Shown here: positions 47,561 through 58,533 of the stretch, in pieces
How positions within the stretch are numbered: the first letter of the stretch is position 1
How the letters are laid out: each line of letters opens with the position of its first letter
Assembly (NCBI RefSeq): GCF_003957295.1
Contig: NZ_RQPJ01000002.1
Span: 496,001-560,000 of the forward strand
Direction of reading: 5' to 3'
Length of the DNA: 64,000 bases
Source of the DNA: Arenibacter aquaticus
GTDB lineage: Bacteria > Bacteroidota > Bacteroidia > Flavobacteriales > Flavobacteriaceae
Program-made: the position numbers and the translations under genes
Notes under the pieces: model-generated
Databases searched by the model: none
What the model was told of the DNA's origin: nothing
The model's input: only the letters and a program-made list of their open reading frames with translations

Positions 47561-47949
47561 GTCTGACTTTAAGCTGTTTTCCTAAATTTGAAATTAAGCT
47601 AGTCCTTATATTGCATAACCTTCCTTCATCTGACCTGAGAATTAAACCTTAATGGATTCTAGGGCCAATCCTTTAATATACCAAACCATAAAAGATCCTT
47701 CTCACTGATAGTCTGGCATTTAGATAAAACTACCCATCATATGTCTACCCGCCGCAATGTTTTAAGTTAAATTAGGTTAAAATTCCATTATATGTCAATG
47801 AAACTGCCAAAATATTGACAATCCCAATTGACAATGCCTACATAATTATTAAATTTCTTTTTTTTATTAAAAATGAATATCTATATTCGTTAACGTTAAC
47901 GATGACTCTTGGAGTTAACAAAATCAACTAACAAATTAAAACTCTAATT
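47561..47949 (+). other. 389-base upstream region of susC
   Basis: It holds the LacI-type operator at 47887-47902 and a -7-like TATATTCG at 47883-47890. Two direct copies of ATTGACAAT at 47814-47822 and 47827-47835 are 13 bases apart. No open frame or tRNA is seen in the first 250 bases. Confidence 0.5.
47887..47902. promoter_or_regulatory. LacI-family operator in front of susC
   Basis: TCGTTAACGTTAACGA is a perfect 16-bp palindrome with the central CG step typical of LacI-family sites. It overlaps the 3' end of the -7-like box TATATTCG, so bound repressor would block transcription. The same sequence occurs at 58491-58506. Confidence 0.8.
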
Positions 47950-50900
47950 ATGAAAAAAAGATTTAAGGAGCTATTTCAAGTGCAGGGTAGTATTCCTGTA
48001 TGGAAGAACATCTTCCTGAAAATATCCCTTGTGGCATGCTTGGGTATTTTCAACACATCCTATGCTTTTGAGGATGTTGACCCACCTTTTCAGAAACAGG
48101 TAAGTGGTGTGGTAACCGATACGGAGGACATTCCTCTAGCAGGAGTTAGTGTGGTAATAGTTGGAACTGTTACCGGAACCGTTACGGATTTTGACGGTAA
48201 ATATAGCATTACCGCAGAAGAAGGACAGACATTGGAATTCTCGTATATTGGAATGAGCTCTAAAAGTGTAGTCGTTGGTAGTAGTAGTATCATCAACGTT
48301 ACAATGGAAGAGGATTTACAATCTTTGGACGAGGTAATCATTACCGGATACGGTACACAGAAGAAAGGTGAAGTTACCGCGGCCATCTCCTCGGTAGACG
48401 CCTCAGCTATTGAAAAAATAGCAACTTCCAGTAGTATTGACGCCATTAAAGGACAAGTGGCCGGTGTGGATATTCAGGCCGATGGCGGAAGACCAGGTGA
48501 AAACTCAACGGTCCGCATCAGGGGTAGACGCTCTATAGGGGCTTCCAATGATCCGCTGTATGTAATTGATGGAATTCCACAGATAAGTGGAACCGAGTCC
48601 GTATCGGACATCAATCCACAGGACATCCAATCCATGCAAATATTGAAAGATGCTGCCGCAACGGCCATTTATGGATCTAGAGGTGCAAACGGGGTGATCT
48701 TAATAACCACAAAAAGAGGTAGGGTAGGAAAGACCAAAGTTACCTACAGCAGCCATATAGGTACTACTTCGGCATCGCGATTGGTAGACATGATGGACGG
48801 AGAGGAATTTGCCGATTTAAAAAGGGAGTCTAGACGTACCTCTTGGAACGGGACCATCCCCACCGATGATCAAGTATTTCTTGACCCCATTGAACTGGAA
48901 TCTATTGAACAAGGTCGTTCTACAGATTGGCTAGACCTGGTACTGGACAACGGATGGCAGACAAATCACCAGTTCGGAGTAAGTGGCGGTTCGGAAAAGA
49001 CCACCTTTAATGCTTCCCTAGGCTATTTTAATGAGCAGGGTATTATTAGCAATATGGACTTTGAGCGCTTTACCGGTAGGATTAATTTAGACCATAGGAT
49101 TAACGACATATTTAAGGTAGGGGTATCTTTCTCTATATCCAACTCTATACAAAACTGGGGTTCATCGGCAACCATGGGAGAAGCCTTGGCCAACAACCCA
49201 TTAGGTGTTCCTTATGATGAGGCAGGCGAACTTCTATTCTTGCCTACCAATGACGGTATACGAACCAATCCATTGAACGAACTTGTGGACGGCGCCTATA
49301 TTGATGAGCGCAAAACCACCAGAATATTTGCCCCAGTCTATCTGGACATCAATATTAATCCAGAATTAAAATGGACCACTACTTTTGGACCGGATATACG
49401 ATACAGAAGACGTGGACAGTTTAGGGGAAGTTTAACCAATGATAATAGGGGAGGCCCAGGAGATGCTTCCATAGAGCACAATGACAACTTTGGGTACACT
49501 TTGGAGAACCTATTGACCTTTAACAAAGCGGTTACCGACAATCAAAACCTTAAAGTAACCCTATTACAGAGTATCCAGAAATCAAGACAGGAAAACTCCT
49601 ATACCGCAGTGGCGAATATTCCTTATGAATCACAGCAGTTCTATAATATGGGGTCGGCCTCTGTTAAGGGGGATATCTCCTCTGGACTAGTAGAATGGAC
49701 CTTGTCTTCCTTCATGGGTAGGGTAAATTACGACATAGACGGCAAATATCTGTTCCAAGGATCCCTTAGGGCAGATGGTTCATCCAGATTGGCCGAAGAA
49801 AACAAATGGAATTATTTCCCTGGATTTTCTGCCGGTTGGAGAATTTCCGAAGAGGATTTTATGATCGACAGCAGTACTATTTCCGAGCTTAAGTTAAGGG
49901 CTTCCTACGGTGAGGTAGGTAACACTTCAGTTGATCCGTATCAAACCGCTGGTAGATTGGAAGGAACTGCCTATGCATACGGAGAATCCACAGCACTTGG
50001 CTTTGGCTTAAACGAAATACCTAACTCTGATTTGGGATGGGAAGTATCAAAAACCATCGACATTGGATTAGACTATGGATTATTCAACGGACGTATTAGT
50101 GGTGCTTTGGACTATTATAGCACCAAGACAACCGATATCCTTTTGAACAGAAGTTTACCTTACACCTCAGGGTATCAGAGTATTCTACAGAATATTGGAG
50201 CCACCGCATCCTCAGGTCTGGAATTTAATGTAAATGCATACATTTTAGATAACCCAGATGGACTTAGCTGGGACATTGGCTTTAACATAGCCGGATTAAA
50301 AGAGGAAATCACAGAGTTGGCACTAAAAGATGAAAATGGAAACTCTATAGATGATGTAGGTAACCAATGGTTTATTGGTCAACCAATCAATGTATTCTAT
50401 GATTATGAGAAAATTGGAATTTATCAAACTTCAGAGGAAGCCTTGGCCAATTCTGCAGAAGGTAAGGTACCTGGAGAAATAAAACTTAAGGACCAAGATG
50501 GAGACGGAGTCATAACTCCGGACGATAGGATTATATTAGGTTCCGACGTACCCGATTTTTACGGAGGTATTACCAACAACTTTTCCTATAAGGGCTTTGA
50601 TTTTAGCTTCTTCTTCTACTTCCGCCAAGGACAGATGATCAGATCGCGTTTTCACGATAGCAACAACTCCCTGTTTGGAAGGTACAACAATTTAGATGTG
50701 GATTATTGGACGGTGGACAATCCTACCAATGCCTATCCTAGACCAAACGAAAATCAGGAAAGTGCCAAAAATGCTTCCACCATGTCCTATTTTGACGGTA
50801 GCTATGTTAAATTAAGGAACGTTAGCCTGGGGTATAATTTCCCAAAATCTATTACGGAGAAGTTAAAATTGTCTAATTTAAGACTTTATGTTGCAGGGCA

Positions 50901-51036
50901 GAATTTGTTTTCCATAACGGACTATGACACCTTTGACCCTGAATCATCAGAAACCGATCAAGAAGATGGTGGTCTGTCCTCCAGTACCGTACCCAGCAAC
51001 AAAATGTTCTCACTGGGGTTGAACGTAACTTTCTAA
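47950..51036 (+). CDS. SusC/RagA family TonB-linked outer-membrane transporter
   Basis: The 1028-residue outer-membrane barrel imports oligosaccharides or other nutrients with SusD as lid. It has an unusually placed signal segment (hydrophobic stretch at 23-40, ending TSYAFED), a carboxypeptidase-regulatory-like domain at about 50-130 (VSGVVTDTEDIPLAGVSVV, FDGKYSITAEEGQTLEFSYIG), then a plug with the SusC signature (VRIRGRRSIGASNDPLYVIDG, DAAATAIYGSRGANGVILITTK). The barrel ends MFSLGLNVTF. It is followed by susD and controlled by the operator at 47887. Confidence 0.96.
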   Translation: MKKRFKELFQVQGSIPVWKNIFLKISLVACLGIFNTSYAFEDVDPPFQKQVSGVVTDTEDIPLAGVSVVIVGTVTGTVTDFDGKYSITAEEGQTLEFSYIGMSSKSVVVGSSSIINVTMEEDLQSLDEVIITGYGTQKKGEVTAAISSVDASAIEKIATSSSIDAIKGQVAGVDIQADGGRPGENSTVRIRGRRSIGASNDPLYVIDGIPQISGTESVSDINPQDIQSMQILKDAAATAIYGSRGANGVILITTKRGRVGKTKVTYSSHIGTTSASRLVDMMDGEEFADLKRESRRTSWNGTIPTDDQVFLDPIELESIEQGRSTDWLDLVLDNGWQTNHQFGVSGGSEKTTFNASLGYFNEQGIISNMDFERFTGRINLDHRINDIFKVGVSFSISNSIQNWGSSATMGEALANNPLGVPYDEAGELLFLPTNDGIRTNPLNELVDGAYIDERKTTRIFAPVYLDININPELKWTTTFGPDIRYRRRGQFRGSLTNDNRGGPGDASIEHNDNFGYTLENLLTFNKAVTDNQNLKVTLLQSIQKSRQENSYTAVANIPYESQQFYNMGSASVKGDISSGLVEWTLSSFMGRVNYDIDGKYLFQGSLRADGSSRLAEENKWNYFPGFSAGWRISEEDFMIDSSTISELKLRASYGEVGNTSVDPYQTAGRLEGTAYAYGESTALGFGLNEIPNSDLGWEVSKTIDIGLDYGLFNGRISGALDYYSTKTTDILLNRSLPYTSGYQSILQNIGATASSGLEFNVNAYILDNPDGLSWDIGFNIAGLKEEITELALKDENGNSIDDVGNQWFIGQPINVFYDYEKIGIYQTSEEALANSAEGKVPGEIKLKDQDGDGVITPDDRIILGSDVPDFYGGITNNFSYKGFDFSFFFYFRQGQMIRSRFHDSNNSLFGRYNNLDVDYWTVDNPTNAYPRPNENQESAKNASTMSYFDGSYVKLRNVSLGYNFPKSITEKLKLSNLRLYVAGQNLFSITDYDTFDPESSETDQEDGGLSSSTVPSNKMFSLGLNVTF

Positions 51037-51086
51037 TTTGATACAAGTTAAATACGTTACACTGTAAAATGTCTAAACAAAATATT

Positions 51087-52745
51087 ATGAAAAGAATAAC
51101 ATATAAAATCTTGGCTTTATCACTGATCGTCTCCATGGTATCATGTGATAAGTTTTTAGAGGAAGAGCTGGTTACCGATGTATCGGCTGCCTCCTATTAC
51201 ACTACCGAAAAAGGTTTCGGTGATGCCGTCAACGCAACCTATGCCCAATTAAAACCCTTTTACGGACAAGAAAGAGGTTTTGCCATGACAACCATGGGTT
51301 CGGATATCTGGACCAATGGCTCAGATGGTGGACATAAGGTATTTAACACCTATGATGTAGGTCTGAACAGTGCCGAAAGCTATGTCCGTGATGCCTGGAG
51401 GGACTGGTACAAAGGTATTAACCAAGCTAATGCCGTTATTGCCAGATCTGAAGGATTGGAAATGGATGAAGAAATAAAAACTATACGTTTGGCGGAGGTA
51501 CGTTTTCTTAGGGCCTTATTTTATTTTGATCTCACCAACACTTATGGTGATGTTCACCTTAGTCTGGAAGAAACCGTTGGAATTGAAATTGAAGCCAACC
51601 AAACATCTAGGGCCGATATTTATAGTCAGGCTATTGTACCAGATCTGGAATATGCAATTGCCAATCTTCCCGAGACACAATCGCCTTATGGCCGTGCTAC
51701 AAAAGCCGCCGCAGAATTCTTATTGGGGAAAGCTTTATTGACTAGAAGCTATACTTCTTGGGCTGAGTCTACAGATGCCTCTAGGGCAGAAACCTTGTTC
51801 TCCAATGTAATTAACAATTATGGCTTTTCTCTTTTGGACAACTACGCCGACTTATGGGACATTGACAACCAAGAGAATAGCGAAATTGTCTGGAACATTA
51901 CCAATTCCAAGACTCAGGTAGATGACGGCACGGATGGTTATGGTCATCGAGGGCATCTATACTTCCTTATGGAATACGATGTACAACGTGGAATGACCCG
52001 TGATGTTACCAATGGCCGTCCTTGGAAAAGACATCGCCCAACAGAATTCATGCTTACCCTTTGGGACCGTAGTCTAGATATCAGGTACGATGCCTCGTTT
52101 AAGCATGTTTGGTATGCCAACAAAGATGAACCTGCCACGGAAGCCAGTGCCAGTGAACCAGCTAGGGCAGCCCTTTCTATAGGTGACACCGCCATTTACA
52201 TTCCTGGACCTGGAAAGGATATAGAATGGCCACAAAGCAGACAGGATACCAAAGCCTATATGACCATCACAAATGATGAATATACGGAACGATTGTTCCC
52301 GTCAATGAACAAATGGATAGACCCTACACGTCCAGATCGCCAAAAGACCCAAGGACAGCGCGATTTTGTTTTAATGAGATTGGCAGATGCCTACCTTCTT
52401 AGAGCAGAAGCCAGATTACAGCAAAGCGATGCAATTGGTGCTGCCGAAGACATCAATGAGGTAAGGGTTAGGGCTGCTCTTCCCGGTATGGAAAGTGCTA
52501 TGGAAATTACCCCTGCAGAGGTTGATTTAGACTTTTTATTGGATGAAAGGGCCAGGGAGCTCGCAGGAGAAGGACATAGATGGTGGGATTTGGCCAGAAC
52601 TGGGAAACTTGTTGAAAGAACAAGACTGTACAACCCGGTTGCTGCTCCAAACATTCAAGATTACCACATAGTTAGACCTATACCACAAGATCAAATTGAT
52701 AGGACCTTGGGAGGATATCCTCAAAATGATGGTTATCCGCAATAG
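51087..52745 (+). CDS. RagB/SusD family nutrient-binding lipoprotein
   Basis: I start at the ATG at 51087 (MKRITYKILALSLIVSMVSC), which gives a clean lipobox ending at C20; an ATG at 51069 would add six residues. The 552-residue protein has the SusD pattern of TPR helices and loops, with EVRFLRALFYFDLTNTYGDV, LMRLADAYLLRAEARLQQ and the C-terminal DERARELAGEGHRWWDLARTG. It binds substrate at the cell surface over SusC, 50 bases upstream. The following hairpin ends the transcript. Confidence 0.95.
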   Translation: MKRITYKILALSLIVSMVSCDKFLEEELVTDVSAASYYTTEKGFGDAVNATYAQLKPFYGQERGFAMTTMGSDIWTNGSDGGHKVFNTYDVGLNSAESYVRDAWRDWYKGINQANAVIARSEGLEMDEEIKTIRLAEVRFLRALFYFDLTNTYGDVHLSLEETVGIEIEANQTSRADIYSQAIVPDLEYAIANLPETQSPYGRATKAAAEFLLGKALLTRSYTSWAESTDASRAETLFSNVINNYGFSLLDNYADLWDIDNQENSEIVWNITNSKTQVDDGTDGYGHRGHLYFLMEYDVQRGMTRDVTNGRPWKRHRPTEFMLTLWDRSLDIRYDASFKHVWYANKDEPATEASASEPARAALSIGDTAIYIPGPGKDIEWPQSRQDTKAYMTITNDEYTERLFPSMNKWIDPTRPDRQKTQGQRDFVLMRLADAYLLRAEARLQQSDAIGAAEDINEVRVRAALPGMESAMEITPAEVDLDFLLDERARELAGEGHRWWDLARTGKLVERTRLYNPVAAPNIQDYHIVRPIPQDQIDRTLGGYPQNDGYPQ

Positions 52746-52773
52746 CCCATATTCATAGAATACAAAATGTTTC

Positions 52774-52812
52774 AAGGCCTCGACTTTATCAAAGTCGAGG
52801 CCTTGCTCTTTT
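52774..52812. terminator. terminator between susD and lacI-type gene
   Basis: A perfect 14-bp stem AAGGCCTCGACTTT / AAAGTCGAGGCCTT (52774-52787 with 52791-52804) has a 3-base loop and is followed by GCTCTTTTTG. It can serve both convergent units. Confidence 0.9.
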
Positions 52813-52878
52813 TGAACAACTATGATTTCAATAAAAGATATGACTGCTTAAAGTGCGGTAAGTAGTAGGTAAAAAAAA

Positions 52879-53928
52879 CTATAAGGCTTGGCAGTTTTCC
52901 TTAACAATGATTTCCACGGGGATATCTATATTTAAATCAGAAGAATCATCCTCCGTTAGATATTTAAACATACTCTTAATTGCTGTATATCCCTGAAACT
53001 CTGGCTTTTGATTGATAAGGAAATGAATTTCATTATTCCTAAGACATTCCAAATTGTCCTTATGTAGGTCAAAGCCAACTACCGATACATTGGATACCTT
53101 ATGGGCCTCAAGAATCTTGGGAATAAGATAAGATCGGGCATTTGTTACAAATATCCCTTTTGGCCGCTTGTCCTTAAACCACTTTTCCAATTCATCGTTT
53201 ATTCCCAACGCCCCTCCTATTGGGTGGTTTATGGTTATAATGGTTATGGGGGTGTCCTTAAAATTAGTTTTAAAAAATTCCCTAAAACCATTTTCACGTT
53301 GCTCGTTGTTTACGTGCATTCCCCTATCGGTAATAATATTGAAAACAAAATACAGGCCCTCTTCCCCAACGAGGCCGTGCAAGAGTCTTCCAGCCACCCT
53401 TCCCGCATCATAGGAGTTCTGACGAATAAAAAAAGCAGGGTCATCCAATTGAATCTCCGTATCCAAAAACAGTACGGGAATCTTGTTTTTCTTGGCATTG
53501 CCCAACAGACAATTACTTTCCTCCTTAAAAAAAGGCACGGTTATAATACCATCAATATCTTTTTTCAAGACCAATTTAGCCTGACTTTCAAAAGAATCCG
53601 GTCCGGTAAAATAAAAGTAAGTAACCAAAATTCCCAAATCGCTCAGCTCCTCTACTGCGTCATCTATTCCTTTTTTGGGTACCTCCCAATAGCTCCAATT
53701 ACTAGTGGCCTCAGGTATCAGCACCGCTATTTTCACCTTTTTCCTCGCTGCCAAATTCAGCCTACTGGCCACTGCATTTTTTTTATAGCCGGTTTCCTTT
53801 ATGATGGCTAGAATTTTTTCGCGTGTAGTTTTGGAAACACCTGGCCTATCATGCAATACCCTGTCTACGGTACCAATGGACACCTTGGCCAGTTTGGCTA
53901 TCTGTTTTATTCCTATAAGCTCATTCAT
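52879..53928 (-). CDS. LacI family transcriptional regulator of the DUF1080/SusCD locus
   Basis: The 349-residue protein has a LacI helix-turn-helix at 4-25 (IKQIAKLAKVSIGTVDRVLHDR), the hinge helix region SRLNLAARKK, and a periplasmic-binding-protein-type sensor domain (about 68-345) that would bind a sugar effector. The hinge leads to CG-centred palindromes, matching the operators at 47887-47902 and 58489-58508, so I infer that it represses or controls both arms. It is the last gene of the minus-strand cluster, 72 bases after the small DUF1080 gene, and has its own -7 box. Confidence 0.93.
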   Translation of the reverse strand: MNELIGIKQIAKLAKVSIGTVDRVLHDRPGVSKTTREKILAIIKETGYKKNAVASRLNLAARKKVKIAVLIPEATSNWSYWEVPKKGIDDAVEELSDLGILVTYFYFTGPDSFESQAKLVLKKDIDGIITVPFFKEESNCLLGNAKKNKIPVLFLDTEIQLDDPAFFIRQNSYDAGRVAGRLLHGLVGEEGLYFVFNIITDRGMHVNNEQRENGFREFFKTNFKDTPITIITINHPIGGALGINDELEKWFKDKRPKGIFVTNARSYLIPKILEAHKVSNVSVVGFDLHKDNLECLRNNEIHFLINQKPEFQGYTAIKSMFKYLTEDDSSDLNIDIPVEIIVKENCQAL

Positions 53929-53976
53929 ATCAGGTCTTCCCTATATTCTCCAATAACTCATCACTGCAAAAAGCGG

Positions 53977-53984
53977 CAAAATTA
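53977..53984 (-). promoter_or_regulatory. -7 box of lacI-type gene
   Basis: TAATTTTG on the minus strand, exact match, 48 bases upstream of the start, inside the gap after the DUF1080 gene. No operator copy is present here, so the regulator may have constitutive expression. Confidence 0.45.
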
Positions 53985-54000
53985 CGATTAAGCAATGATA

Positions 54001-54606
54001 CTATAGCACTGCCAATCGTATTTTTCTAAATTGTATTTCCATTTCCCTGTTTGGGTGCAATTGAATCCCAACGGGGCCTTCTAGATTGGCATTCGGCATA
54101 GTGTAATTCATTACCTCCTCACCGTTTAACCAAACGGTATAGGAGTTTCCTATGGCTCGAGCCGTTATGGTATTCCATCCTTTTAAACGAAGTAGTTTTT
54201 TTACGTTACTGGCCTCTACGGGGTAACCCAAACCAGGCACATAGGGAGACCCGGTCATATCCCGCTTTAAGGATCCGGAAATACCTATTTGAATCTGTGG
54301 GCTCTTCTTATCATCGCCCCTCATAAATATTCCCGAATCTATATTTCCTTCTATAAGCTTAAAATCCAGTTGGACTATAAAGTCCTTGTAAGTATCTTGG
54401 GTCCATAAAATGGAACCTTTCTTTTCCGCGTTATTCTTGGCTGTAATCTTCCCTTTCTTTATAGACCATTCGTTGCCATCAGGCACCTTCCAATTCTCCC
54501 AAGTCTTTCCATTAAAAATAGTATTCAGTTTGGTTTGCTCGTATCCTTGGGCTACACAGCTGGTACCAATAAACAACAGAATGGACAACAAAGAAATACA
54601 TCTCAT
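54001..54606 (-). CDS. exported single-domain DUF1080 protein
   Basis: The 201-residue protein has a signal peptide with a Cys near its end (FIGTSC17VAQ; lipoprotein or Sec cleavage at AQ) and then a lone DUF1080 domain: TIFNGKTWENWKVPDGNEWSI, LDFKLIEGNIDSGIFMRGDD, GWNTITARAIGNSYTVWLNGE and VGIQLHPNREMEIQFRKIRL. The family includes hydrolases/lyases of 3-keto glycosides. It is 11 bases after the DUF6807 gene. Confidence 0.9.
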   Translation of the reverse strand: MRCISLLSILLFIGTSCVAQGYEQTKLNTIFNGKTWENWKVPDGNEWSIKKGKITAKNNAEKKGSILWTQDTYKDFIVQLDFKLIEGNIDSGIFMRGDDKKSPQIQIGISGSLKRDMTGSPYVPGLGYPVEASNVKKLLRLKGWNTITARAIGNSYTVWLNGEEVMNYTMPNANLEGPVGIQLHPNREMEIQFRKIRLAVL

Positions 54607-54617
54607 ATTAGCTTATA

Positions 54618-55682
54618 TTAGTTTTTAGCAAAATCAGAAAAATAATTTTCGAACGCATTTTTATCCAAAGGATCGCCACTATGTACCAATACGGCATATT
54701 TAAAAGCAACCGTTTCCCCTTTGGCCAAGGAAAAGTTTAATTTCTCCTTCCCGTCCGAAAACACTTCCTGCCCCAATGGATTGGCCGCAAACAGACCATA
54801 ACCACGGGCGTGCCAATAGGTAGGATAGCCTACGTTTTTTGGGTGATCCATTATGGTCACCGAAACGGGTTCCTGATCTACTTCACCATATAATGTTGTC
54901 CATTTGGCACGGGTGCCCCAGGCATCTTCACCTGTTTTTCCCTCACTTGTTAAATAATCGCCCTTAACACCTTCATTGTTCAAGGCTTTAACCTCTGTAG
55001 GAATACCGTTAGCATCCGTAAAGATAGATGGCTTGTCTGAAGGCAGCTCCAGTCCCCTAGTTACCCGAATGGCTATCATCCCTTCTTTATTGTCCTTAAA
55101 AGAAACGTCCTCCAAGGCTTTTAAAGTGGTATTCCTAATAATTTTTCTCATAGATCCTTCCTGACCAAAAGTAAAGGTGGTGGTTTCTTCCAGTAGCGTA
55201 TTATTATCTGGACCATTCCAGTTTGCCTTTATGGTCAGGGTACCCTCGTCCGCATTCGTATCCAAGATTTCCTGATGCTCAATAGTACCAAACTTATGCT
55301 TTTCCTCATCTGGAATGGCATAAGAATTGTTCCAAAAATCCAATCCGTTAACATCCCCATAGTTAAACCAAATACCAACATGATGCGGATGGTCTACCCT
55401 TTCTCCAGGCGTTGGTTCCAACGGAAAGCCCCTTGTTATTTTTTTACCACTATTGGTAATAACCGGATAGAGTACAGGTTTAGGGGTAGTACCGTCATAT
55501 AAATAACTGGTAAACAATTTACCATCCATAAGCACATCTACCTTTTGGTTTTCTTCATCGTTTATAAAGCTTATGGCATTCGTCTTAGGTTCCACATTGG
55601 CAACTACGTCCTTTTTTGCTTTCTCCTTACAGGAGCATAGTACTACAAGAACAAGAATAATACTGGGTTTAATTATAGACAT
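54618..55682 (-). CDS. DUF6807 (PmoA-like) lipoprotein
   Basis: I start at the ATG at 55682, which gives a lipobox (VLVVLCSC); the frame is open to 55754 but that would overlap the previous gene. The 354-residue protein has the features of the family often labelled PmoA: GFPLEPTPGERVDHPHHVGIWF, a His-rich motif at about 92-105, GLDFWNNSYAIPDEE, VTIMDHPKNVGYPTYWHARGYGLFAANPLGQ. The link to methane oxygenase is only historical. Such proteins often sit beside Gfo/Idh/MocA and DUF1080 genes, as here. The activity is unknown; a beta-sandwich with a metal or sugar site is likely. Confidence 0.87.
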   Translation of the reverse strand: MSIIKPSIILVLVVLCSCKEKAKKDVVANVEPKTNAISFINDEENQKVDVLMDGKLFTSYLYDGTTPKPVLYPVITNSGKKITRGFPLEPTPGERVDHPHHVGIWFNYGDVNGLDFWNNSYAIPDEEKHKFGTIEHQEILDTNADEGTLTIKANWNGPDNNTLLEETTTFTFGQEGSMRKIIRNTTLKALEDVSFKDNKEGMIAIRVTRGLELPSDKPSIFTDANGIPTEVKALNNEGVKGDYLTSEGKTGEDAWGTRAKWTTLYGEVDQEPVSVTIMDHPKNVGYPTYWHARGYGLFAANPLGQEVFSDGKEKLNFSLAKGETVAFKYAVLVHSGDPLDKNAFENYFSDFAKN

Positions 55683-55701
55683 TGGAATACAATTTAAGAG
55701 G

Positions 55702-57060
55702 TTAGTATTTAAAAACAGTGTTGCCCGCCAGAACATCCTGTGCCTTTTCATCAAAGGTAGATTTGAGTCCGGTCCTTAGGGCTGCTGTTGTCATTATATT
55801 GGCTATGGAATGATTATATGCCGCATCAATAGGCCCATTGGTTTCCTTTCTACTCCTAACACATTCCATCCAGTTCAACATATGCAAAGAAGTCATATTA
55901 TCGGCACCTGTATTGGCCGAAGTAACCACCTTGGTAGCCGACTCCGAAAGGTCAAATTCTTCCAATTGATTGGCCTGCATCCCCATTTTATTGGCATGGG
56001 AAGCTTTTAAGCCTCCATTGGGACTTACCTTATTGGTATCAAGATTTAATTCGCCTCCATTGGAATAATAAATTTCCTTGGTTCCCCCTGCAGAATTGGT
56101 GAATCTTGATGAATAAACAACCTGAAAACCTTTGGAAAGGTCATCCAAGGGGCCATAATCAAACACCGCGGTCATGGTATCATAATTCTTTCTACCGTCT
56201 TTCCAGAGGTATATTCCGCCGTTTGCCGCTACACTTCTGGGGTGGTTTAAACCCGTAAACCAATGCACGGTATCAATCTGATGGGACATCCATTGTCCGG
56301 GAATTCCTGAGGAAAAAGGCCAGAATAACCTATATTCCAAATATTTGCGTGGATCCCAAGCTTCATAAGGCCTGTTCATAAGATAGCGTTTCCAATCGGT
56401 ATCCGACTCCTTTATTTCACTGGTCAGTTTTGGTAAGCGCCATCTATCAGGTTGGTTTACGTTCCAACTCATTTCAACCATCACAATATCTCCGAATTTC
56501 CCGGATTTTATATAATCGTTGGCTGCGTGATAATTCTTGCCACTTCGCCTCTGGGACCCAATCTGAAAAACTATTCCGGATTCCTCAACGGCTTTTTTCC
56601 CCACTCTGGCATCTTCCATTGTTTCCGCAAAGGGTTTTTCTACATACACATCTTTCTTGGCATTGGCCGCCTGTACCGTATGAAGGGCATGTTGAAAATC
56701 TGGGGTGGAAATGATAACCGCATCAATTTTATTTTCCTCGTACATTTCATCGTGATTCCTCCAGGCCTTCACCTTGTTTCCGGTTTTGTCCTTTAAGAAA
56801 GCTGCCCCTTCGTCCCTTCGCCTGTTCCAGATATCAGAAACACCTACTATTTCAAAATTCTGTTTCTTATGATGACCTAGGAACGCAGGTATCAAGGCCC
56901 CTTTGGCCCTATTGGAAAAGCCGGCTATACCTACCCTTACCCTGTCATTGGCACCCAGGATCCGTCCATAACTCTTGGCGCTCATCGTATGCATGCCCAA
57001 TGCAATACCTCCGCTTGCCAAGGCCGTATTCTTGATAAAAATTCTACGTCCCTTACTCAT
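55702..57060 (-). CDS. Tat-exported Gfo/Idh/MocA family oxidoreductase
   Basis: The 452-residue protein begins with a twin-arginine signal (GRRIFIKNTALASGG), so it folds with its nicotinamide cofactor before export. The Rossmann domain starts RVRVGIAGFSNRAKGA, followed by VIISTPDFQHALHTVQAA and the family Lys in YVEKPFAETMEDARVG. The C-terminal alpha/beta domain contains SGIPGQWMSHQIDTVHWFTG. Members with this leader oxidise sugar hydroxyls, notably at C3, using a tightly bound cofactor. It lies between the double DUF1080 and the DUF6807 genes with gaps of 25 and 19 bases. Confidence 0.93.
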   Translation of the reverse strand: MSKGRRIFIKNTALASGGIALGMHTMSAKSYGRILGANDRVRVGIAGFSNRAKGALIPAFLGHHKKQNFEIVGVSDIWNRRRDEGAAFLKDKTGNKVKAWRNHDEMYEENKIDAVIISTPDFQHALHTVQAANAKKDVYVEKPFAETMEDARVGKKAVEESGIVFQIGSQRRSGKNYHAANDYIKSGKFGDIVMVEMSWNVNQPDRWRLPKLTSEIKESDTDWKRYLMNRPYEAWDPRKYLEYRLFWPFSSGIPGQWMSHQIDTVHWFTGLNHPRSVAANGGIYLWKDGRKNYDTMTAVFDYGPLDDLSKGFQVVYSSRFTNSAGGTKEIYYSNGGELNLDTNKVSPNGGLKASHANKMGMQANQLEEFDLSESATKVVTSANTGADNMTSLHMLNWMECVRSRKETNGPIDAAYNHSIANIMTTAALRTGLKSTFDEKAQDVLAGNTVFKY

Positions 57061-57085
57061 AATATGTCCTTTTAATTAATACTAT

Positions 57086-58468
57086 TTAAAACTCACGCAC
57101 TTTAATACTTCTAAAAAACACCTGATCACCGTGGTCCTGTAGTAGTATCCTTCCTTCTGGAATAACGCCGAAGTCTTTCCATTTTTCGTATTTACTTTTT
57201 TCTACCAAAGCTTTAAACGCTTGACTCCAACGGTCGTACTCCACTACTTTTACATTGTTTAGCCAATGTTCTACATGCCCATCTTTTACCACAATTCTAG
57301 CATTGTTCCACTTTCCAATTCCATTAAAATTCTTTCCTCTGGAATTTTCAAAGTTTTCGGCTCTTATAAGATCGTATAATGAACCTACCGTCCTATTTCC
57401 GTTTTTACCCTTCTTGGCGTCTGGATGTTTTTTATCGTCCAAAATTTGGAACTCCAAACCAATGGCAGAGCCTGCTCCCTTATTTAGGCTTGGGTCTACA
57501 AAATACTTGATGCCGCTATTACCCCCTTCGGTCAATTTAAAATCTACACTTAGTTCAAAATCACTAAAGGCCTGGGTAGTAACTATATCACCACCATTTG
57601 TAGATTCCCCGCCATCCGAGGCAGAAACACTCAGTATTCCATCTTCTATATTCCATCCTTTTTGTGGAAAGCCATCCAGTTTGGCCCCGCGCCATCCTTT
57701 GGTGGTCTTACCATCCCATAATAAACGCCAGCCTTTCCTAATCTCATTAGGCGTCAATTCATTTTGAAGATAGCTTATCTCAGGGGCATGATCGGCCACC
57801 CTATTTCGCTCATTTTCTAAATCAGAGGTCTTTATTTTAATATTTTTCCATTTAACAATTTTACCCTCTAAAGCCTCATCGTGGATAGAGTGTACCTGAA
57901 ATGCTATAAAACCTTCAGAGGTAAGGTCATCTACCAGATTGGCACATTGTACCCCATTGATATAGGTTCTTATAGTATTGCCAATAGCCTCTATCCTATA
58001 ATGGTTCCATTCCCCAGGTTTAAAGGCATTTCTACCTTCTTCATTTCTGGACAATGGGTATAGCCAGCCCCTACGGGCCTCATCATAAATGCCTCCGGCC
58101 CATTTCCTATCACTGGTTTCAATCTCACATTGATAGCCATGAACCCTTCCATCCCTATAAGATGGCAGACTTAAACTCCTAAACTGAACACCGGAATTCA
58201 ATCCGTTTTCCACATATACTTCAAACTCCAAAATAAAATCACCATACTTTTTTTTGGTTGCCATAAAACTATTGGGCGTATTCAAGCGGGAAGTGCCGAC
58301 CATTTCCCCGTTTTCAACTTTATACTTGGCATTGCCGTTCAATTGCTCAAAATTGGAAAAGTCTTTTCCGTTAAAAAGCATTTCCCAACCGTCTTGGGCG
58401 AATGATGAAGAAATAGTTCCACATAGAAGTAATGCCAGAAACCATTTTGTTGATTTGATAAATCCCAT
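57086..58468 (-). CDS. exported protein with two DUF1080 domains
   Basis: The 460-residue protein has a signal peptide (cleavage after SSFAQ) and two tandem DUF1080 domains: about 28-212 ([54 protein letters not shown]) and about 240-460 ([56 protein letters not shown]). It is the first gene of the minus-strand arm and has the operator-overlapped promoter. The two domains may act on different linkages or one may only bind. It belongs to the 3-keto-glycoside hydrolase family. Confidence 0.92.
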
Positions 58469-58488
58469 AATTTATTGTACTTATTAAT

Positions 58489-58533
58489 TTTCGTTAACGT
58501 TAACGAAAGTAAAAAAATATCTTGAAACCCCAA
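58489..58533 (-). promoter_or_regulatory. LacI-family operator and promoter of the DUF1080 arm
   Basis: The 20-bp palindrome TTTCGTTAACGTTAACGAAA (58489-58508) contains the same 16-mer as at 47887. On the minus strand a -7 box TACTTTCG (58511-58504) runs into it, and 19 bases further upstream TTG (58533-58531) is a -33 element at the consensus spacing. Repressor binding would cover the -7 box and start site. Confidence 0.8.

Follow-up and report, generated by a model that had tools for sequence, protein, structure and literature searches.

LacI Regulators and 3-Keto-Glycoside Loci in Bacteroidota

In Bacteroides, the LacI-family regulators KdgR, UxaR, UxuR, and UxmR have been predicted to control sugar-acid use (PMC3878776; PMC4052901), and a pectin locus of Gramella has been drawn with a LacI gene beside the genes for UxuA, UxuB, UxaC, KdgK, and KdgA (PMC4891872). 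The regulator of the 3-keto-glycoside locus of Bacteroides thetaiotaomicron, BT2160, is reported to be SusR-like (SusR4) (PMC3878776), and D-glucuronate tripartite ATP-independent periplasmic (TRAP) transporters with UxuA, UxuB, and UxuC neighbors, such as STM3169, have been reported (PMC7660916). Here, we analyzed a 64-kb stretch of the Arenibacter aquaticus genome (positions 496,001 to 560,000 of contig NZ_RQPJ01000002.1, hereafter the window), in which a susCD gene pair and a run of genes encoding two DUF1080 proteins, a Gfo/Idh/MocA oxidoreductase (Gfo/Idh), a DUF6807 protein, and a LacI-family regulator are each preceded by the same perfect palindrome. We propose that this regulator (52879-53928) is very likely an autoregulated repressor that controls four promoters and serves hexuronate use, one branch of the regulon being the 3-keto-glycoside locus.

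Compared by description with KdgR, UxaR, UxuR, and UxmR, the system shares the LacI family, the phylum, and a predicted control of glucuronate, galacturonate, or mannuronate use, and the Bacteroides KdgR and UxmR regulons are also reported to take in some periplasmic or extracellular proteins; however, the regulator here belongs to a Flavobacteriaceae/Saprospiraceae clade, and its regulon would add SusCD, the DUF1080/Gfo-Idh/DUF6807 module, and a TRAP transporter. With BT2157-BT2160, whose layout we take to be that of an operon, the locus shares a DUF1080 hydrolase and a Gfo/Idh dehydrogenase, but it has a LacI rather than a SusR-like regulator, and a double DUF1080 protein, a DUF6807 protein, and susCD are added. 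In addition, the window Gfo/Idh protein is neither a BT_2158 nor a BT_2159 equivalog (91.6 bits versus the BT_2158_fam cut-off of 750, and 31.2 versus 650); it may work like the glycoside 3-dehydrogenases of BT_2158_fam, to which it has a weak, below-cut-off match, but it is not a member. The Gramella pectin locus, again compared by description, likewise belongs to the Flavobacteriaceae and has a LacI gene in a uronic-acid-polymer locus; the part of that description considered here gives no operator or regulon (PMC4891872). As in the D-glucuronate TRAP systems, the DctP of the host is nearest to hexuronate-binding DctPs and is encoded beside uxuA and a mannonate oxidoreductase gene, whereas a shared operator here joins the transporter to SusCD and the 3-keto-glycoside locus. 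A literature search, limited in reach and mostly at listing level, found no description of this regulon. The preliminary description of this DNA had regarded LacI control as unusual for Bacteroidota; given the predicted Bacteroides regulators and the Gramella locus (PMC3878776, PMC4891872), it is not odd for the phylum. The device is ordinary for LacI; the combination of genes was not met in that search, and what is newly predicted here is a connection of the DUF1080 module with uronic acids.

One Palindrome at Four Promoters

The operator is a 16-bp perfect palindrome, TCGTTAACGTTAACGA, with a 14-bp core, CGTTAACGTTAACG. Searching the window revealed two exact matches, at 47887-47902 (+ strand; core 47888-47901) in front of susC and at 58491-58506 (- strand) in front of the gene run from DUF1080 to lacI, and no further copy at up to three mismatches. 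Both sites are intergenic and face their own genes, with the susC ATG at 47950 (+) and the double-DUF1080 ATG at 58468 (-). In 100 shuffled versions of the window, the mean number of matches at up to three mismatches was 0.08 and two were never found, and the exact copies expected from base composition were 0.00002 per window and 0.002 per 5.23-Mb host genome; thus, a chance origin of the paired 16-mers was rejected. Most LacI-family motifs are reported to be even palindromes centered on a CG (PMC4052901), and both sites have this form and lie near promoters. The earlier claim of two identical, perfect operators at these genes was therefore confirmed.

Across the host genome, five exact copies of the core were found, one of them intragenic and four in the promoters of susCD, of the DUF1080/Gfo-Idh/DUF6807/lacI operon, of a dctPQM TRAP transporter operon adjoining uxuA and a mannonate oxidoreductase gene, and of a second Gfo/Idh gene. 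The full 16-mer occurred exactly four times, twice in the window, once before the TRAP operon, and once within a Zn-dehydrogenase gene, and the second Gfo/Idh gene was preceded by a copy with one mismatch. The many unrelated copies that, according to the preliminary description, would speak against a regulon were thus not encountered. The two-armed design that it envisaged was rejected, because four promoter arms were found, including the inner-membrane TRAP transporter and the second Gfo/Idh gene. At up to two mismatches, the core matched 15 places in the host genome, comprising the five exact copies, one place overlapping an exact copy, and nine others; these nine (one or two mismatches) were rejected as sites, all lying in stop-free frames of at least 235 residues in the 3-kb stretches read.

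Exact cores within genes were seen in the host Zn-dehydrogenase gene by uxaA (L008:9623, C19:38623) and, in two other genomes (G201 and G373), within uxaA itself at least about 100 nucleotides from its start (L196:7180, L201:7029). It is possible that these copies are operators of an altronate branch or that they are coding coincidences; thiolase and short-chain dehydrogenase/reductase (SDR) genes, named by eye, show that coding sequence, for instance V-N-V-N, can give rise to the core.

Co-occurrence of the Palindrome with the LacI Gene

The LacI-type gene (52879-53928, - strand), which as previously claimed lies between the two window operators, encodes a protein with the two domains of the LacI/GalR family, an N-terminal helix-turn-helix (Pfam LacI, E 1.6e-13, 50.6 bits versus a cut-off of 27) and a periplasmic-binding-like effector domain (Peripla_BP_4, E 1.5e-29, 103.8 bits versus 35.1), and its recognition helix reads VSIGTVDRV. 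The closest named records bearing it were from Arenibacter, with 71-75% LacI identity. An orthologue was present in 12 of 18 Arenibacter genomes (the window and 11 named loci), and the 16-mer, allowing one mismatch, was found in exactly those 12 and in none of the other six. Operator 2 was present at all 12 loci, and the susC-arm site at all eight with SusCD (six exact, two with two mismatches); SusCD was missing from the other four loci, where the left site was missing too. The dctP promoter carried the exact core in 12/12 genomes with the regulator, compared with a best match of 5-6 mismatches of 16 in 6/6 without it. The second Gfo/Idh gene (E 1e-150) was likewise found in 12/12 and 0/6 genomes, respectively, and its operator was present in all 12 at zero or one core mismatch.

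The host genome contains 11 LacI genes, and L012 and some others also have SIGT in the recognition helix, so that other LacI paralogues might read the palindrome instead of, or together with, the window LacI. We consider this improbable, because the Arenibacter genomes lacking the window LacI retain four to seven LacI genes but have no 16-mer at up to one mismatch, and because, among the loci of 14 related LacIs (30-38% identity), 13 had no site at up to three mismatches and one had a three-mismatch match. A LacI of a different type (L014) is encoded near dctP in all 18 Arenibacter genomes (17 neighborhoods read plus L014 itself), operator or not; it therefore cannot explain the operator distribution and was rejected as the reader of the dctP site. 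The dctP promoters of the Arenibacter genomes without the window LacI (L149-L154) have, by eye, another conserved inverted-repeat-like stretch, ~GCTAAGGTTGTTATCTTTAGC, which may be the site of another regulator.

The same pairing of the window LacI with the palindrome was observed across 397 genomes of the family, in which LacI was called at E 1e-80 or better and two of the LacI-bearing genomes are Arenibacter. The exact core was present in 16 of 22 genomes with LacI and in 8 of 375 without (Fisher p 4e-18, a value that ignores relatedness, species not being independent). In seven of these eight, every copy of the core fell within a coding frame (thiolase, leuC, atpG, SDR, and others, named by eye), and 15 of the 16 had a site within ~6 kb of lacI. 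Among the 15 sampled genera bearing LacI, the operator accompanied it in 12, and of the seven genera with both kinds of genome, five had the core in LacI-bearing members only, two had no exact core, and none showed the reverse. Orthologues of the Gfo/Idh module (E 1e-150) occurred in 21 of the 397 genomes, 15 with LacI and six without; 14 of the 15 had the exact core, compared with none of the six, whose module loci had at best a site with at least two mismatches. The LacI orthologues formed one clade (34 rows versus 21 others; Shimodaira-Hasegawa-like approximate likelihood ratio test support 100 in a short tree search), and the recognition helix SIGTVDRV was kept in 33 of the 34 rows, with SIGTIDRV in G050. 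This comparative evidence argues strongly that the LacI is paired with the palindromes and, as the preliminary description had proposed, that import and enzymes would answer to one signal.

Several observations weigh against this interpretation. Six of the 22 LacI-bearing genomes lacked the exact core; three of them had one-mismatch forms (G050 at the DUF1080 promoter, and G244 and G398 before uxaC-lacI), and the other three (G094, G119, and G169) had no site at up to two mismatches in the loci read. SIGTVDRV is kept also in site-less genomes, and thus the helix does not explain site loss. One genome without LacI (G264) held an intergenic core copy. Seven LacI-bearing genomes lacked the Gfo/Idh module, and of these only two (G313 and G350) had the exact core, so that LacI plus module predicts the core better than LacI alone; the single exact site of G350 does not lie near its lacI. 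In Arenibacter, dctP identity was 86-91% in genomes with LacI versus 78-82% in those without; the two groups therefore resemble two clades, and the division of 12 versus 6 may reflect few events. In the host genome, the fifth exact core copy, near uxaA/uxaB, sits inside a gene, and no site lies ahead of uxuA itself, the site falling between uxuA and dctP.

As a separate observation, the exact core of G350 (L202:6947) lies between sulfatase-like genes (by eye) and may belong to another branch of the regulon.

Promoter Layout

As the preliminary description had noted, a -7-like box overlaps each window operator, TATATTCG at 47882-47889 (+) and TACTTTCG at 58504-58511 (-). Both boxes have the form TAnnTTCG, near the flavobacterial -7 consensus TAnnTTTG, which is reported to sit at -12 to -5 (PMC9723704). 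If these boxes are used, transcription would start near 47894 (+) and 58499 (-), and both operators would thus cover about -7 to +9, a layout that predicts repression by occlusion. The overlap of TAnnTTCG and operator was conserved at 8/8 susC and 12/12 DUF1080 promoters in Arenibacter, and outside this genus, of 24 sites of our own selection from the loci, 15 had TAnnTT immediately 5' of the core. We infer that a LacI dimer binds TCGTTAACGTTAACGA through its core and, at these two promoters, would occlude both the -7 box and the predicted transcription start, thereby blocking RNA polymerase. Operator 2 heads a run that ends with lacI, which follows a 72-bp gap; lacI may be co-transcribed with this run and is thus probably autoregulated, as is common for local regulators of the LacI/GalR family.

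At the promoter of the second Gfo/Idh gene, the site in most of the 12 genomes does not overlap a TAACTTTC-like box but precedes it by some 16-18 bp, a position that would suit an activator. That LacI is an activator, or that the palindrome serves a global catabolite regulator, is nevertheless the least probable explanation that we considered: the site overlaps the -7 box at 20/20 Arenibacter susC and DUF1080 promoters, which is the layout of a repressor, and the core stands at no more than four promoters in the 5.2-Mb genome, so that it is not global.

In five genomes, a second operator-like site was seen at susC promoters 21 bp, or two helical turns, downstream of the first (L213:2763, L214:2937, L218:15724, L068:15470, and L197:15514/15535).

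A Probable Link to Hexuronate Use

In G201 and G373 (genus g185), the core heads DUF1080 genes as well as a run of mannonate oxidoreductase, uxuA, a further gene, and dctPQM. The mannonate oxidoreductase of G373 scored above the NCBIfam cut-off, and the gene between uxuA and dctPQM encodes a PfkB-family kinase in G373, like 2-keto-3-deoxygluconate (KDG) kinases but below those cut-offs, and a 2-keto-3-deoxy-6-phosphogluconate aldolase, above cut-off, in G201. The core also heads a third Gfo/Idh gene run, with DUF6807 in G373 and with dctPQM in G201, as well as the second Gfo/Idh gene of G373 and the susC of G201 (two sites 21 bp apart) but not that of G373; the first dctP of G201 matched in two pieces. 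In G244 and G398, the one-mismatch core precedes uxaC and then lacI, where the G398 uxaC is above the glucuronate isomerase cut-off and the G244 lacI has an internal stop. The nearest solved proteins to the host DctP were 4N8Y (galacturonate), 4X8R and 4N91 (glucuronate), and 4MHF (both), and in alignments read by eye it keeps the two arginines and the asparagine of the glucuronate binders. Moreover, three of the six module-bearing genomes without LacI (L282-L284) have SDR or uxuA homologues no more than ~5 kb from the DUF1080/Gfo module. Thus, from these core-headed runs, the kinship of DctP, and the neighboring genes, the signal is most likely a hexuronate, as judged from gene content and site position.

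The DUF1080 enzymes characterized or proposed so far act mostly on neutral keto-disaccharides, reportedly 3-ketotrehalose for BT2157 and, as proposed in Caulobacter, 3'-ketolactose (PMC9007349), and in the host genome only dctPQM, at its own promoter, carries a site among the hexuronate genes, not uxuA. Both points would fit a regulator that senses a non-uronic sugar, such as a neutral 3-keto sugar, with an incidental TRAP/uxuA association. This alternative appears rather doubtful, given the site-headed mannonate-oxidoreductase/uxuA/TRAP runs of G201 and G373, the one-mismatch form heading uxaC-lacI in G244 and G398, the hexuronate-binder residues of DctP, and the SDR/uxuA homologues beside modules even where LacI is absent.

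In the proposed regulon, SusCD would serve outer-membrane uptake; the DUF1080-Gfo/Idh-DUF6807-DUF1080-lacI run would oxidize and hydrolyze glycosides in the periplasm via a 3-keto intermediate; dctPQM, beside uxuA and mannonate oxidoreductase, would import the sugar acid across the inner membrane; and the second Gfo/Idh gene, the fourth arm, would supply another secreted protein. The repressor would most likely be released by a sugar acid or early product, namely glucuronate, fructuronate, mannonate, or KDG. The 3-keto module itself may cut a hexuronate glycoside.

Gene Content of the Locus

The left arm, on the + strand, consists of susC (47950-51036), encoding a SusC-type TonB-dependent outer-membrane transporter (NCBIfam TIGR04056, E 8.6e-269, above cut-off), and susD (51069-52745), encoding a SusD-type lipoprotein (Pfam SusD_RagB, E 2.3e-35). 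The right arm, on the - strand, begins with the double DUF1080 gene (57086-58468), whose product matches PF06439 in two stretches (E 9.1e-88) and has 4jqt as its nearest solved chain (E 1.3e-169). It continues with the Gfo/Idh gene (55702-57060; Pfam E 1.8e-17), whose product has a twin-arginine-like signal by eye, a DUF6807 gene (54618-55754; Pfam PF14100, E 1.3e-78), a single-domain DUF1080 gene of the 3-keto-disaccharide hydrolase family (54001-54606; PF06439, E 2.3e-31), and lacI, with short gaps or overlaps between genes. PF06439, the hydrolase domain of the 3-keto-glycoside pathway, is thus present in two proteins of the window. The DUF6807 protein had no relative of solved structure in the PDB at E 0.01, and DUF6807 recurs alongside DUF1080 and Gfo/Idh genes. 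A GC-rich inverted repeat at 52776-52808, between the convergent ends of susD and lacI, resembles a shared terminator by eye.

Implications

In the regulon, the module of DUF1080, Gfo/Idh, and DUF6807 proteins would take its place after uptake by SusCD and before import of the sugar acid, which gives this module a testable substrate class. We tentatively suggest, at somewhat below even probability, that the double-DUF1080/Gfo-Idh/DUF6807 module cleaves uronic-acid glycosides in the periplasm through C3 oxidation instead of using lyases or ordinary glycosidases, and that in flavobacteria one LacI and one operator tie it to the import of glucuronate and to the UxuA pathway, in a chain that reaches from the outer membrane into the cytoplasm. 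In addition, such a high-information LacI operator would be useful for calling regulons in marine flavobacteria.

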